From: a virus
Length of the DNA: 27,648 nt
Direction: 5' to 3' (one strand)
IMG/VR virus record: IMGVR_UViG_3300036715_001365
Span: 1-27,648 of that record
The notes beneath the pieces were generated by a model. That model had not been told where the DNA came from. It saw only the letters and a program-made list of their open reading frames with translations, and made no database searches. Each line of letters begins with the position of its first letter. Positions within the stretch are counted from its first letter, which is position 1. The position numbers were made by a program, and so were the translations under genes. Of this stretch, positions 879-13,369 are shown piece by piece.

Positions 879-2510
879 TCAAATTTCTCTGATTGCCGCT
901 GCGTCGACCATCATAGCGCGGCGCGGCGCTGCGCCAAACAAAATCATTACGCCGTCGCCTAGATTGGGGCTCTTCGACCCGTCGGGCTGCTTCTCGACGA
1001 CGATCTTGCCGACTTCGTCTTTGCGGTACGTCGGCTGCGAAAGCTCGATACAAAGCTTCCCTAAGACGCCGTGCGGGGCTTTCGGCGTCGGCTTGGACAA
1101 GGCCGCTTTGTCGAAGCTGATAATCTGGTCGACGTCGACCGGGTCGCCAAACTTGATCGCGCGATAGGTCAGATAGCAGCGCCGGCGCAGCCCCCACCAT
1201 CGTTGCGCCTTGGCGTTGCGGAAAAAGTCTTTATTCAGCCGGCCAGCAACGTCTTGCGCTTCGGGGCGATAGACGGCGCCCGAGCCGCGGAACGCCGAGA
1301 CGTTTTGCGGCGAGATACGCTCGGCGGCGCGGCGTTCGTTAATCACGCGGGCATTGCCGCGCACGTCGGCCCCGAGCCCGTCGGCGTCGTATTGCCAGTC
1401 GTAAATGGCAAGATCGTCGGCAAGGCCAAAGGCGCGCTCGACGGTCGCAAAGATATCCGAGCCCTTGCCCGACCACTCTTCAGCATGGTTCACGACCGGG
1501 CCGTGCGCGGCGATAAACGCGTTGCTGTCTTTGCCTTCGTCGGCAACGTCGAGCGCGCCCCGGCGCTCCCCGGTTGGCTCGAAGCCGAGCGCGATATGGG
1601 CGTCAATGCACGCCTGTACCCATTCGCTCGGGATAAGTACGCCTTCGACCGACGCCGAATAGTTTATGTCAATTTCCTGCGCCACCGTGACCGGGTCAAG
1701 CTCGGCGCATTGCTTGTCGTACCATGCGTCGTCTTTGCGCGGGTCGTCGCGCCAATGGAAGGTGAACAGCTTGATCTTGCCGCCGGCGCGCTTCTCATAG
1801 AACGGGTTGGCCGTGCCGTTGGCCGAGCTGATATCAATGCGGCAATTGGTCGTCTGCGATAGCGACGCTTCGATCAGTTGCGGCCGTTCAAGGTACGCCG
1901 CTTCGTCGACGAAATAGATCGACGCGCGATCGCCGCGGCCGATATTGTCGCCGGCTTCCCCGGTGATCGTCGACCCGGTGCCCGGGAACGACAGCCGCAT
2001 ATGGGCGCTATCCCGGCGCGACGACCAGTTGCCGTTAAACTCGGGCGGCAAGTGAATTATGAATTGCCGCGCCTTCCAAAAGAGCGACTTCGGGTGCCCG
2101 ATCTTGTCGACGTACTCTTCCTTGCGCGAGCCGAAGCCGATAGTCAGGTCGTCGCGGAAGAGGCATAGCGTCGACGCCAGCGCAACGGCCAGCCATGAAA
2201 CGCCGGCGTCGCGGCTCTTCTCGGCAAGCCCGGGCTCGCGCGACTTCCACCGCTCGACGGTCCAATCTATCCATTCGCGCTGCTTGGGGAAAAGCAGGAA
2301 CGGCATCATAACCGGCTGGTTTACCTCGGCGTTGCGGGGGTCGACGGTCACGCCCCACTCTTCGATAAAATCGGCCGGGTGATCGGCGTACCAAGTTTTC
2401 AGCCGGGGGATAAGCTCGGGCTCGGCCCGCAACGCTTCGAGCTTGCGCAACCGCTCGACGAAGACCGGACCGTAGTCGGGGTTTTTCCAATCGAACGCGG
2501 GCTCGGTCAC
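879..2510 (-). CDS. Terminase large subunit (TerL)
   Basis: 543 aa, the normal TerL size. TerL is the packaging motor: an N-terminal ATPase pumps DNA through the portal and a C-terminal RNase H-like nuclease cuts the concatemer. Visible motifs are a non-classical Walker A ([10 protein letters not shown], about residues 97-106), as in many TerLs that lack the GxxxxGK[ST] form, and a Walker B with the catalytic acid (IYFVDEAAY, about 198-206). An acidic cluster ([14 protein letters not shown]) in the second half fits the first nuclease aspartates. The start is GTG at 2510, overlapping the upstream stop as GTGA, so translation is probably coupled. The portal gene follows after 2 bp. I am confident of the function but not of the DNA-end type (cos, pac or headful). 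Confidence 0.92.
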
Positions 2511-3526: not shown

Positions 3527-4297
3527 CTAGTGCTGCGTCGACCCCATAATGCGCTTGTACGCCGCGGCGGCCGCAATCGGGTCTTTCGCCAGCGCGGCAA
3601 GCCCCTCTTCGTCGGGTATCTTCTCGCCCATGATACGCACTTGCGCGACGTCGAAGCCCGAGAGCTTGGCAAACTGTTCGGCCGCCTTGCCCTTGTCGGC
3701 CATTTTTATTTCGATACCCTGCGCCGTTTCCTTGATACCTTCGAAGGCGGCCCGGGCCATGGGCGTCAGCTTCGACGTGTCGGCGATATCCGCGCGCCCC
3801 ACCCCCTTGCCGTGACAATGGGGGCAATCGTCAGCCGGGGGCTTTGTGGCGTCGTAACCGAAGCCGCCGGCTATGTCGGGCAGCTCGACGTCTTTAACGC
3901 GCCGGGCGACCAGCGCTTCAGCCTTGGACAGCTCGCGCATATATTCGTGCGCGCGCCATTGATATTCGTGATCGTCGCCGTAGCAATGCCGACACGCCCC
4001 GATCGCCCAAGCGGTAATTTCCGCCGGGTCATAGATCATCCGGTAATACCACCAGCGCAACAGCCATTCGCGGGTCGCGCCGATCGTCGCGTTGTTCGCG
4101 TCCTGAATTTCGCGAATTCTTCCGGCTATTTTCTCTTTCCCGTTCAGCGCCCAAATATCTTTATGATACGGCCGGCTCGGGTTGGGATTGTACGCTTCCC
4201 GGTACGCTTCGGCATAACTGGTCACGGCGGCGAGCTGACAATAGCGCTCTTCCTTTGCCGATAACGCGCCATGCAGGGTCTTGTTCGCTTCGGTCAT
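3527..4297 (-). CDS. Terminase small subunit (TerS), zinc-binding type
   Basis: 256 aa from ATG 4297; 15 extra upstream codons are in frame but have no better start. TerS recognises the packaging site and hands DNA to TerL. The N-terminus (SAKEERYCQLAAVTSYAEAY, residues 13-32) has the look of the helix-turn-helix opening of terminase small subunits. Two CxxC pairs (C102/C105 in CRHCYG and C158/C161 in CPHCHGKGVG) can form a zinc ribbon, as in large TerS proteins that carry an added treble-clef insert. The position beside the repeat-rich non-coding region fits a protein that binds there. The operator-promoter of the next unit starts right after its stop. Confidence 0.75.
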   Translation of the reverse strand: MTEANKTLHGALSAKEERYCQLAAVTSYAEAYREAYNPNPSRPYHKDIWALNGKEKIAGRIREIQDANNATIGATREWLLRWWYYRMIYDPAEITAWAIGACRHCYGDDHEYQWRAHEYMRELSKAEALVARRVKDVELPDIAGGFGYDATKPPADDCPHCHGKGVGRADIADTSKLTPMARAAFEGIKETAQGIEIKMADKGKAAEQFAKLSGFDVAQVRIMGEKIPDEEGLAALAKDPIAAAAAYKRIMGSTQH

Positions 4298-4347
4298 AAT
4301 GGCCCGTAAATTACCGCAATTGCTGGTCACGGCAAGACCCAAAAATT

Positions 4348-4615
4348 TACCCCGTATGTACCCCGTACTTACCCCGTTGGTACGGGGTACTCTAAACTAT
4401 TGGTGTTGTTAGATAATATCAGAAATACCCCGATACCCCGTACCAACCGCATATCGCTTACGTGTGCGCGCGCATGCGCACGCCCGCCCCCGCATGGAGT
4501 TGAGCGTTTGTACGGGGTATCGGGGTAAATGCCAAAAAGCCCCACAAAAGCAAGGGCTTGGAGTACCCCGTATCGCGGGGTAAATCGGCTATTTGTACGG
4601 GGTAGCGACGGGGTA
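4348..4615. repeat. Cluster of about 12 TACCCCG/CGGGGTA repeats in the 333-bp non-coding region
   Basis: The stretch 4298-4630 has no gene. TACCCCG in either orientation begins or ends at 4348, 4359, 4370, 4381 (inverted), 4426, 4434, 4511 (inverted), 4519 (inverted), 4564, 4574 (inverted), 4596 (inverted) and 4608 (inverted). The first four are spaced exactly 11 bp apart, one helical turn, so they face the same side of the DNA. The left half is mostly TACCCCG and the right half mostly CGGGGTA, so the cluster is roughly mirror-symmetric around the GC-alternating block. An AT-rich segment (4404-4426) separates the sub-clusters. Candidates are a TerS recognition (cos/pac) site, a replication origin with iterons, or binding sites for a late activator. 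Confidence 0.8.
4459..4483. other. 25-nt strictly alternating purine-pyrimidine tract
   Basis: From T4459 to C4483 every step alternates pyrimidine and purine, mostly CG, with a GCGCATGCGC palindrome in its centre. Such tracts can adopt Z-DNA under negative supercoiling. It sits between the two halves of the TACCCCG repeat cluster. Confidence 0.6.
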
Positions 4616-4630
4616 TTTCGCGGCTATAAA

Positions 4631-4858
4631 TTATAGACCGTCTTCAGGCATGCCGAGTATCTTCCGCGCCCGCTTTATATTTGCGTCGGTATCCGCGCGC
4701 GAGCCGCTAAAGCCCCGATCATTCTCAACCAAATTGGCGAGCGCTTCAAATTCTTCGAACAACCATTTGCGGTCTTCGTCGGTCATTGCGGGTACCTGTC
4801 GTACAGCGACCGCTCGGGCGTGCCGAGTATCGTGCGGATTGACGCGTTGACGGGCCAT
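4631..4858 (-). CDS. Hypothetical charged protein, 75 aa
   Basis: Start ATG 4858 overlaps the upstream stop as TAATG; a longer form back to 4903 would overlap the previous gene for no gain. The N-terminus is basic (MARQRVNPHDTRHARAVAVR). The C-terminal half is helical and acidic, then basic (DEDRKWLFEEFEALANLVEN, RADTDANIKRARKILG). No family is recognised. It is the last gene of the early minus operon, before the repeat-rich non-coding region. Confidence 0.6.
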   Translation of the reverse strand: MARQRVNPHDTRHARAVAVRQVPAMTDEDRKWLFEEFEALANLVENDRGFSGSRADTDANIKRARKILGMPEDGL

Positions 4859-6653: not shown

Positions 6654-6857
6654 TCAGGCCATTATTTTTGACATTTCCCGGCCGGCGTCAGTCGCACGGA
6701 AATACCCGGTCGCCGGGGAGCGGAACAACAGCCCGTCGGCGGCGAGTTGCTTGGCGTGCGCCAGTGCGTCGGGAACGCCCCGGCAAATGTCGTCGGGGTG
6801 CCGCATGGCTCCAGCGTCGAGCCCGGCGAAGGCGTGCAAGACGGGAAGCCAGTCCAC
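6654..6857 (-). CDS. Small winged-helix-like protein, 67 aa (GTG start)
   Basis: GTG 6857 overlaps the primase-helicase stop as TAGTG, so it is probably translated by coupling. The pattern is that of a mini winged helix: a first helix (WLPVLHAFAGLDAGAMRHPD), a helix-turn-helix-like part (DDICRGVPDALAHAKQLAAD) and a wing (GLLFRSPATGYFRATDAGRE). The ending T-x2-GR is typical of wHTH regulators. It may be a DNA-binding partner of the replication protein before it. The stop is only 15 bp from the operator palindrome of the next operon. Confidence 0.6.
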   Translation of the reverse strand: MDWLPVLHAFAGLDAGAMRHPDDICRGVPDALAHAKQLAADGLLFRSPATGYFRATDAGREMSKIMA

Positions 6858-9253
6858 TAGCCGAACCGTGCCGCGGCGACGCCGGCGGTCGTCGTGTCTT
6901 GGGCTGACGTGTACGCCTTGGCGATCGACGCGGGCTCGGTCAGATTGCAGCTCAAATGCCCGATCGAGACGAACAGCCGCGGCTTGCCGTGATCGGGCTG
7001 CACAACGTTGTTGACCCGGCCGTCGATCAGCCCCGGGTGATAGTCATACCCGATAGATTGCATCATGGCCCGGCGCTTGTTCCGCGGCACGCTCGCCTTA
7101 ATCTGGTCGAGCAGTTTGTCGAGCGCGATCGACGATATCCAGCCGCCGGCAAACCCGGGGCGGCCCTCTTCGATCGCTTCCAATATCTCTTGCTCGGCTT
7201 TCCCGAGCGACAGGCGCAGCGCGAGACTGGTCGACGTCGTCGCCGGGGCGCGCACGCAAAGTTGCGCCGGGTCAAGCTCGGCGGTCAGCTCGAAGCTGGC
7301 GAGATAGTCGTTCACGACCGCAGCGCCGTAGTTCGGCCCGTAGTTGTGGTACCGCCGGCGGCCGTACAGCCAGTCGTACAGATCGGGGAAGTAATCGCCG
7401 CCCATGCCGGCTTCGGCTATGTCGGCCGCGCTTTGCTGCGCCGTGTAAAAGATCGAGTAGCGCCGGCTGTCGACGTCGATCGGCACCGCTTCCTTATGGT
7501 TCGTGAAGAGCAAGCCGTTAATCCGGTTGTCGCCGGTCTTCTGGTCGGTGCCCTTGCCTTCGATCGGCGCTCGGTCGTTGGTCACGGTTGCCTTGAAGCT
7601 CTCTAGGAATTCGCGGCGGTGCCCGACGTAAATCTCTTCAATGCCTAGATAAAGATTACCTTGTATCCACGTATTGAATTGGTTTCCGGTCTTCGCCATG
7701 GCGTCGGGGTTGACCAAGTGACTGTAGCGGTGCCCGATCGCGAACGACATTACCCGGTCGAGCAAGGTCTTGCCGTTGCCTTCGGCGCCTTGGATTACGG
7801 GCCACCATTGGAGTTTGACGCCCGGGTTTTGCCGCATGCTCGCCATATAGTGCAGCAATATCGAGCGGTCCCTTTCGTCGGGGAGCATTTTTTCAAGGTG
7901 GCGCAGGAACGGCCCGGGGTCGCCAGCAATGCGCTTCGTGTCGATCGGAAGGTAGGTGTTGACCAGCGTGCGCCCGTCTTCCTGCACGATCGCGCCCGGG
8001 CCGTACTCGGGGCGGAAGCACGTCGTCGAGACGCGCGGGGCAACAAAGATACGCGAGCGGGTGAACGCGTCGAAGGCGCTGTCGACGACCTTGCGGTTTT
8101 CGCCGTCGATCGGGAAAGCGTGACCGCCATAAACGATATCGAACCGGGACTTATCGAGCATATCGCCCGTTGCCGGTATCCAAATCCGGTGCTGGTCGAC
8201 GACGTAAACGCAGCCGGCAAAAAAGCCGAGCTGGTCGGTGCCCGACATAAATTCCTGTCCGGCGTCGCGCAGCTCGATACCAGCCGCCGCAGCAACGTCG
8301 AGCGACGGCGCAACCGTCTCGCGCGCCTTGCAAACGTTCCCGACGACCGACGCGGCCTTCATGATCGTTGTTTCGAGCCAGTCGGGGCGATCGGTCCAAC
8401 GATCGGCGACCAAGGCTGACTGGCACATTAAGTTGCGAATACGTTCGTGGTTTTTGCCGGTCCAAAAGGCAAGGTGCCCGGCGAGCGCGGCGTCGGCCCG
8501 GCTATGGCTGAAGTCGGCTTTATTTGACGGCCATTTCGCGGCGAGCTTGTCGGCGTTGGCGGTCCAAAGGTCTTCGAAGGTCACGGCTTCGTCGCCGCCA
8601 AACGCCGCGGCGGCCGAGCGTTTGCCCGACGCCAGCGCAATTCGTATCAGCGCTTCGTCGTCAGTCGGCCCCGACCACTCTTCGACGGGCTGGTCGGTCC
8701 AACCGGCAATCTCGCCGTGTACGCTCGGGGGGAAGAATTCGGCGACGATCGCGGCGATCGCCGCGCCGGCGTCGAAGCCCGCGTCGCCTTGGGCCTGAAG
8801 CCCGGTCAGCGCGACAAAGCGGTCGTGCGTGTAAAGCTCAAGACCAAGCTGGATATTGCGGCAACTATGCGCCGGGCACGCCCCGCGGCCGATCAGGTGC
8901 AGTCCCTTGCCCGACTGGCTGACTTCAACCGCGGCGCCGGCCAGCCGCGCGCAAAGGCTGTTCGCCAGCCCCGACCAAGCGGGCCCGGCGGGCGTCTCTT
9001 CGAGCGCCCCGTCGATATCGAGAAACCAGAAGCCGTCAGCTTCGTTGAAAACAAACCCGACCGGGCGGCCTGTCGCCGCCGCTTCGTCGTAAGTGTAATG
9101 GTGCGCGGTGTTCGTGACCGCGATGTTAAAGCCGGTCTTGACGTCGACGGGCCGCTTGATCGTCTTGCCCGGGCGGTCAGGGTCGGGCGTCAGCGTGTAG
9201 TTTACAAAGCGCCGGTATGAAGCAAGCGGCGCCAGCGCGGTCGGTAATGTCAT
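6857..9253 (-). CDS. Primase/polymerase-helicase fusion (NrS-1-like PrimPol)
   Basis: 798 aa, starting at ATG 9253 behind GGGGGG. The N-terminal part carries archaeo-eukaryotic primase (PrimPol) signatures: FWFLDIDGA with D79 and D81, SQSGKGLHLIGRG with the conserved histidine H119, and LELYTHDRFVALTG (about 138-151). The C-terminal part has an SF3-like helicase Walker A (GAEGNGKT, K495) and TNHKEAVPIDVDSRRYSIFY, as in the DUF5906/D5-type helicases of phage NrS-1. One protein can therefore prime and unwind at the origin, replacing separate primase and DnaB-type helicase. It lies behind the TetR-like gene (20-bp gap) under the same operator, so its supply is probably set by that regulator. Confidence 0.85.
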   Translation of the reverse strand: MTLPTALAPLASYRRFVNYTLTPDPDRPGKTIKRPVDVKTGFNIAVTNTAHHYTYDEAAATGRPVGFVFNEADGFWFLDIDGALEETPAGPAWSGLANSLCARLAGAAVEVSQSGKGLHLIGRGACPAHSCRNIQLGLELYTHDRFVALTGLQAQGDAGFDAGAAIAAIVAEFFPPSVHGEIAGWTDQPVEEWSGPTDDEALIRIALASGKRSAAAAFGGDEAVTFEDLWTANADKLAAKWPSNKADFSHSRADAALAGHLAFWTGKNHERIRNLMCQSALVADRWTDRPDWLETTIMKAASVVGNVCKARETVAPSLDVAAAAGIELRDAGQEFMSGTDQLGFFAGCVYVVDQHRIWIPATGDMLDKSRFDIVYGGHAFPIDGENRKVVDSAFDAFTRSRIFVAPRVSTTCFRPEYGPGAIVQEDGRTLVNTYLPIDTKRIAGDPGPFLRHLEKMLPDERDRSILLHYMASMRQNPGVKLQWWPVIQGAEGNGKTLLDRVMSFAIGHRYSHLVNPDAMAKTGNQFNTWIQGNLYLGIEEIYVGHRREFLESFKATVTNDRAPIEGKGTDQKTGDNRINGLLFTNHKEAVPIDVDSRRYSIFYTAQQSAADIAEAGMGGDYFPDLYDWLYGRRRYHNYGPNYGAAVVNDYLASFELTAELDPAQLCVRAPATTSTSLALRLSLGKAEQEILEAIEEGRPGFAGGWISSIALDKLLDQIKASVPRNKRRAMMQSIGYDYHPGLIDGRVNNVVQPDHGKPRLFVSIGHLSCNLTEPASIAKAYTSAQDTTTAGVAAARFG

Positions 9254-9273: not shown

Positions 9274-9609
9274 TTAAGCTGTTACGCTATCGAGCGCTCG
9301 CTTCTTCAACTCGGCGGGTAGGTCGGCGACCGCGCCGTGCCCGTCGACGATCGCTTGTGCGATGATCGGAAGGCTTTCGGTGCGCACGGCTTCGACGACG
9401 ACCGCGTCGCGCAAAGCGTCGATCGTGCCGAATTCGTGATTTACCGACCCGAGCGCAACGCCGGCCATTTGGGCGACGACGTCGCGGCCAAGGTTGCGGT
9501 ACCCTTTGGTCGCGGCCAGATCGACCGCGGCGCCAAGGATAGCTGACCGGCGCTCGGCCCGTTGTAGGGCGGCGCGTTCTTCTCGGGGTAGGCGGTTGGG
9601 AAGTGTCAT
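9274..9609 (-). CDS. Truncated TetR-like DNA-binding regulator, 111 aa
   Basis: From ATG 9609 (a TTG at 9615 is in frame but would fall before the predicted transcription start). Residues 20-76 read as a TetR N-terminal domain: RRSAILGAAVDLAATKGYRN, then the helix-turn-helix RDVVAQMAGVALGSVNHEFG and IDALRDAVVVEAV, matching the family's AG-V-x-x-G-x-(hydrophobic)-x2-(aromatic)-F shape with N57/H58 in place of the usual Tyr. Normal TetR proteins have about 200 aa. Here only about 35 residues follow the DNA-binding domain, so there is no room for a ligand pocket. It is the first gene behind operator-promoter 3 and the only such regulator in view, hence the best candidate to bind the TTGAC-N6-GTCAA sites and repress itself and the replication genes. 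Confidence 0.75.
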   Translation of the reverse strand: MTLPNRLPREERAALQRAERRSAILGAAVDLAATKGYRNLGRDVVAQMAGVALGSVNHEFGTIDALRDAVVVEAVRTESLPIIAQAIVDGHGAVADLPAELKKRALDSVTA

Positions 9610-9615
9610 GCGCAA

Positions 9616-13283: not shown

Positions 13284-13293
13284 TGGGTACCCC

Positions 13294-13335
13294 GTTAAAT
13301 TTTCGCTTGACCGCGCCGTCAATCCATTTTACCCC
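13294..13335. promoter_or_regulatory. Divergent operator-promoter 5 (replication operon rightward, helicase leftward)
   Basis: TTGACCGCGCCGTCAA at 13307-13322 lies in the 86-bp gap between divergent genes. Rightward: TTGACC, 17 bp, TACCCC (13330-13335), with the AT-rich AAATTTTCGC upstream as at the other copies. Leftward: TTGACG (13322-13317), 17 bp, TTTAAC (13299-13294), giving an almost leaderless helicase message. One bound dimer could block both directions. Both -10s are weak. TACCCCG, the heptamer of the terS-side cluster, also occurs at 13288 and 13330. Confidence 0.6.
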
Positions 13336-13369
13336 GCCGCTTGTCAACCCATTCGGAGCGAGAAAAGCA

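Follow-up and report, generated by a model that had tools for sequence, protein, structure and literature searches.

An inverted iteron array at the early/late boundary of tailed phages as a candidate replication origin

PICI origins lie immediately 3' of rep and consist of two iteron sets around an AT-rich region (PMC6092414). The pRN1 origin, a 21-nt stem with a 58-nt loop, is found 3' of an AEP-primase/SF3-helicase gene, and an origin of this type has also been proposed for Bordetella phage BIP-1 (PMC4234260). The protein class of the NrS-1 polymerase forms SF3-like hexameric rings (PMC7102993), and P4 alpha, as summarised in PMC4234260, is a multifunctional primase-helicase whose winged helix binds origin repeats. 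Repeats also occur at packaging sites: in SPP1 pac, next to the gene for TerS, they lie on either side of the cut site (PMC6316719, PMC4737164). The iteron origin is therefore known as a kind. New here are its layout across autonomous tailed phages, the doubled copies and a GC-rich alternating core; no paper describing such an array in tailed phages was found in the literature searched (most subscription journals lay outside it).

We analyzed a 27,648-bp phage fragment from an IMG/VR record (the window, meaning the whole stretch), in which an array of TACCCCG repeats is flanked by terS and by a small early gene, both on the minus strand. The array and the genes that bear on it are as follows.

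879–2510, minus strand: terL (phrog_2)
3527–4300, minus strand: terS, the first late gene downstream of the array (PF03592 just under the cut-off, phrog_51)
4308–4335, minus strand: weak promoter-like pair TTGCCG-N16-TAATTT leading into terS, read by eye and under the scan threshold
4348–4376, plus strand: TerS-proximal outer iterons, three exact TACCCCG at 4348, 4359 and 4370 (11-bp steps)
4383–4389, minus strand: inverted outer iteron, exact, forming TACCCCG-N6-CGGGGTA with the copy at 4370
4426–4440, plus strand: TerS-proximal inner tandem pair (4426, 4434), exact; with its inverted partner it makes up the conserved 'quad'
4441–4512: core between the inner pairs, 72 bp, GC 0.62
4459–4483: alternating purine-pyrimidine run of 25 nt in the core (0/500 shuffles)
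4513–4527, minus strand: inner tandem pair on the early-gene side (4513, 4521), exact
4548–4560, plus strand: IHF-like element AAGCAAGGGCTTG in the arm, one mismatch to WATCAANNNNTTR, of putative function
4564–4582, both strands: outer iterons TACCCCG (4564, plus) and CGGGGTA (4576, minus), exact
4598–4615, minus strand: distal outer iterons at 4598 and 4609 (11-bp step), exact
6857–9253, minus strand: proposed initiator, with AEP prim-pol, NrS-1-type HBD, DUF5906 (SF3-type) helicase and a C-terminal domain
9274–9615, minus strand: TetR-like HTH protein, an alternative repeat reader (PF00440, phrog_8723)

Twelve exact copies of TACCCCG or its complement CGGGGTA occupy 268 bp (4348–4615), as a sequence-only reading of the window had estimated. 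The whole window holds 24, against 3.7 expected in shuffled sequence, and a search of 4250–4700 returned no one-mismatch copies. The same reading had spaced the first four copies 11 bp apart, which holds for three of them (4348, 4359 and 4370); the fourth, at 4383, is inverted and follows 13 bp on. It had described the left copies as mostly TACCCCG and the right copies as CGGGGTA; the strand order is + + + - + + / - - + - - -, a dyad. The GC-alternating core that it noticed is real. Around this core runs an inner inverted repeat (4426–4447/4506–4527) with 22-nt arms, 95% complementary, and 58 nt between them; folded as a single DNA strand, the array region reaches z = -7.4. The counterpart of the IHF-like element in the opposite arm is weak in the window phage. 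Five site pairs share one centre, a value reached by 63/5000 random placements and 362/5000 strand shuffles, so that the symmetry inside this single array has only modest significance, and the comparison between phages provides much stronger evidence.

In relatives identified via TerS and TerL, an array with this layout stands immediately upstream of terS. The sequence-only reading had suggested looking for conserved repeats at the same place in relatives. What recurs is the layout (two tandem copies, a 60–100 bp core, two inverted copies and outer inverted copies), with a word that varies, among others TACCCCG, TTCCCCG, ACCCCCG, TACACCT, TCCGAGCT and AGTGACGTT. The quad, defined as two copies of a 7-mer, 40–130 bp and two inverted copies, was detected in 24/223 loci and in 0/60 shuffled ones, and its position was almost always the boundary between early and late genes. 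When 2.9 million viral contigs were scanned blind for the TACCCCG layout, 15 contigs were returned, all real arrays on inspection; six bacterial genome contigs that matched were rejected as chance matches. In closer relatives the outer sites face the opposite way to the inner pair and stand 43–46 bp from it, a distance that hardly varies, and many arrays have an IHF-like element between outer and inner sites (25 matches vs 8.7 expected). Cultured phages with the array include MEW1, B2, SppYZU01 and Scuro, and Acinetobacter phage 4316 has it beside terS; no comparable array was found beside terS in well-known TerS relatives (F116, DC1, Itty13, BcepIL02 and others). One phage record obtained from a TerS match, which also has an enterotoxin gene (L098), was excluded from the array comparisons. 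The core is AT-rich in MEW1, G013-type phages and phage 4316 (GC 0.22–0.30), and also in L032; in the clade of the window phage, a GC-rich alternating purine-pyrimidine tract takes its place. Alternating tracts and AT-rich DNA both give way under negative supercoiling, so the two kinds of core may have the same role.

Some genomes carry the array twice. Five metagenomic phages (G013, G014, G017, G020 and G030) have a second array before the Neck1/tail operon, and Klebsiella phage MEW1 (Jedunavirus) has arrays at both places, before terS and before the Neck1/tail operon. The MEW1 twins (L329, 38075–38343 and 3646–3970) are unannotated. Their AT-rich cores, ~100 bp long, are nearly identical, and ahead of the second array there is a direct repeat of 65 bp. 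The two arrays of G013 (L248 and L249, 35489–35740 and 50079–50330) are identical at 274/277 positions, whereas in the other two-array genomes the array types at these places are distinct, which points to probable gene conversion between the G013 copies. A comparison of strand runs between one-array and two-array genomes was too noisy for use.

We read the array as a phage replication origin, with a probability of roughly 0.65, because two iteron sets around a melting core, 3' of a gene for a primase-helicase, are the published layout of SaPI/PICI origins. The window primase-helicase carries NrS-1 HBD and DUF5906 domains (phrog_1829) and matches the NrS-1 primase in the PDB; its prim-pol part matches 7ola ('DNA primase', grouped with 7om0; E = 2e-7), which we take to be a staphylococcal-island protein. 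The 3' end of its gene lies 2.2 kb before the array. As in SaPI/PICI origins, two symmetric iteron sets flank a central region on the 3' side of a primase-helicase (pri-rep) initiator gene, and the word varies between lineages while the layout stays. Unlike those origins, the arrays belong to autonomous tailed phages, occur once or twice per genome, stand against a late operon, and include extra inverted outer sites and IHF-like elements; the core of the window clade is a GC-rich alternating tract. Since its centre is not AT-rich (GC 0.62), as the centres of MEW1, the G013 type, phage 4316 and L032 are, we regard the window array as a variant, not a member, of the SaPI/PICI type. With pRN1 it shares a large inverted repeat, a stem-loop of about 100 bp, 3' of an AEP-primase/SF3-helicase gene (21/58 nt in pRN1, 22/58 nt in the window), as well as low sequence conservation with the layout kept; the pRN1 origin is described without iterons, whereas in the window iterons make up the stems and further copies lie beyond them. 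Phage P4 has two cis regions (ori and crr), which the two-array phages resemble, and a primase-helicase that binds origin repeats, as proposed here; P4 alpha has a Toprim primase.

On the model of the SaPI/PICI and pRN1 origins and the SF3-like rings of the NrS-1 class, we propose bilateral binding, core opening and the loading of two helicases. The C-terminal domain of the primase-helicase would contact the TACCCCG iterons, with sets of the protein on the two arms facing in opposite directions, and bends at the IHF-like elements in the arms would bring outer and inner sites together. Such two-sided binding would strain and open the core, a head-to-head pair of hexameric helicases would be loaded, and both strands would be primed by the prim-pol domain. 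Several observations count against an origin: in the window the core is not AT-rich and 2.2 kb separate the array from the primase, and in the six genomes with two arrays both stand before late operons, an arrangement that fits late control at least equally well. GC skew, one of the checks that the sequence-only reading had put forward, does not turn at the array; its minima lie at least 5 kb, mostly 11–25 kb, from the arrays, and its small amplitude follows gene direction.

The genes that recur with the arrays encode a primase-helicase, an SF2 helicase, a VRR-NUC protein, DUF2800, a TetR-like protein and an SSB of the Enc34 type. Of 27 cases, 26 have the array 3' of the primase/helicase gene, and G025 has it on the 5' side of the primase. 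In seven lineages (G028, G026, phage 4316, G011, G023, G027 and G039), which have different primase families, only 10–141 bp separate it from the primase-helicase gene. The array tracks the AEP primase/SF3-helicase replication module and not the terminase. All CCCCG-word arrays that could be checked occur with a primase-helicase whose helicase/C-terminal half is of the window type. G025 is the informative case: it shares with the window the type of its TetR-like protein (49%), its prim-pol domain (39%) and its SF2 helicase (60%), but its helicase/C-terminal half is of another type, and its word is TCAGTCA. The word class goes with the helicase/C-terminal half of this protein, with two exceptions (G041 and G022) that combine a window-type C-terminal half with a different word. 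KRR in the putative recognition helix goes with CCCCG (13:1 vs 1:4, Fisher p = 0.006, kinship ignored). The modelled C-terminal domain has the predicted order helix-strand-helix-helix-strand-strand, that of a winged helix, with a pLDDT of about 90 there; a PDB fold search gave no significant match to it, and a sequence search against the PDB returned nothing. The TetR-like gene is also conserved beside the primase. Its product was rejected as the repeat reader, since changes of the word are not matched in the recognition helix (SVNHEF with TACCCCG and ACCCCCG, SVNHYF with TCAGTCA) and G025 is a counter-example.

Three options had been offered from the sequence alone, and synteny, layout and the comparison of word with protein favored the one in which the primase-helicase acts at an origin. 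The packaging option, a pac or cos site modelled on SPP1 pacL-pacC-pacR, where TerS would bind the repeats of either side and TerL would cut in the core, now looks improbable. The array does lie beside terS in most genomes, its core is flanked by repeat sets, SPP1 pac likewise has repeats around its cut site close to the gene for TerS (PMC6316719, PMC4737164), and position 1 of one contig (L007; compare G028) is inside the array core, which may reflect an assembly break or a physical end. However, the same array occurs with terminases of four families, phrog_2 (window phage), phrog_3717/phrog_2 (G013 type), lambda-like phrog_15 (G034) and T7-like phrog_38 (G022), and second copies stand before tail genes, which together argue against a TerS-specific packaging site. 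For G034 the adjacency of array and terminase is presumed from circularity only: a Neck1/minor tail gene stands next to the array there, and terL lies beyond the end of the contig. In contrast to SPP1 pac, then, the arrays are independent of terminase family and do not accompany a terminase small subunit of their own. Nor does TerS similarity predict the word, which is exactly the same with TerS proteins 30–39% identical to that of the window, with quite different HTH segments, and differs with TerS proteins 50–56% identical to it. We rejected the zinc-ribbon TerS as repeat reader, as its HTH segments do not follow the word; the G013 TerS is still in the broad phrog_51 family and lacks the zinc ribbon. 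Where a window-type TerL is combined with another TerS, the stretches fetched from those relatives had no such word cluster. Contig ends were considered as genome ends and dismissed: several lie near arrays, and because their offsets differ (0, 70, 225 and about 640 bp) they look like assembly breaks. In three other phages (L034, L051 and L064), GGTACGCA iterons are found about 200–280 bp ahead of the match to TerS, where a longer TerS gene begins its coding sequence, and might be a real pac-type repeat set there.

Control of the late operon is a serious rival, alone or added to an origin, because the arrays abut late transcription units and promoter-like elements follow several of them. An early-encoded regulator, for example the TetR-like protein (9274–9615), would bind the array and switch on or hold off the late promoter downstream. 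Without exception the arrays stand against the start of a late transcription unit, ending about 5–100 bp before the first late-operon gene in nearly all phages (more where a small gene intervenes), and the six two-array genomes place one array before each of two late operons. The promoter-like elements read TTGACC-N17-GACAAT (G013/G014) and TGTGGTATTAT (G013b-type arrays and SppYZU01), and the TetR-like gene is conserved. We nevertheless consider late control by itself unlikely: a promoter needs no 270-bp dyad with a melting-type core, the promoter scan of the window found no consensus promoter, the recognition helices of the TetR-like proteins do not change with the word, and the word was not found at the early divergent promoters of relatives. 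A combination of origin and late switch is likewise a tentative idea on our part. The initiator on the dyad would open the origin and couple late transcription to replication, two late units would account for two copies, homogenised in some phages, and a Z-DNA-prone GC-rich alternating tract would melt in place of an AT-rich core. Partition sites can contain clustered iterons of this kind, but the scan of the window proteins recognised no partition gene, and a partition or immunity site, or another cis element of extrachromosomal life, seems very improbable.

If the array is a replication origin, many autonomous tailed phages would share one origin design, among them a cultured Jedunavirus of Klebsiella that has it twice, and satellites and phages would be joined under one replicon type. 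The layout would provide a sequence signature for predicting phage origins, and recognition could be decoded from the initiators and iteron words that the lineages pair naturally. How an origin opens without AT-rich DNA could be tested on the GC-rich alternating core.

Further repeats accompany these loci. Two TACCCCG copies, 42 bp apart (13288–13294 and 13330–13336), lie at the divergent early promoter region of the window; the pair was not conserved in the early divergent promoter regions of relatives. CTGGTCACGGC occurs twice in the window (4218–4228 and 4323–4333), GTGACC(A) is also found after the arrays of many relatives, and GTGACCAG stands several times before array b of G013; these repeats are possibly another operator. 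A phage with a window-type primase (L221) has at least 25 copies of CTGCGCC at ~11–12-bp steps between 11693 and 12006.
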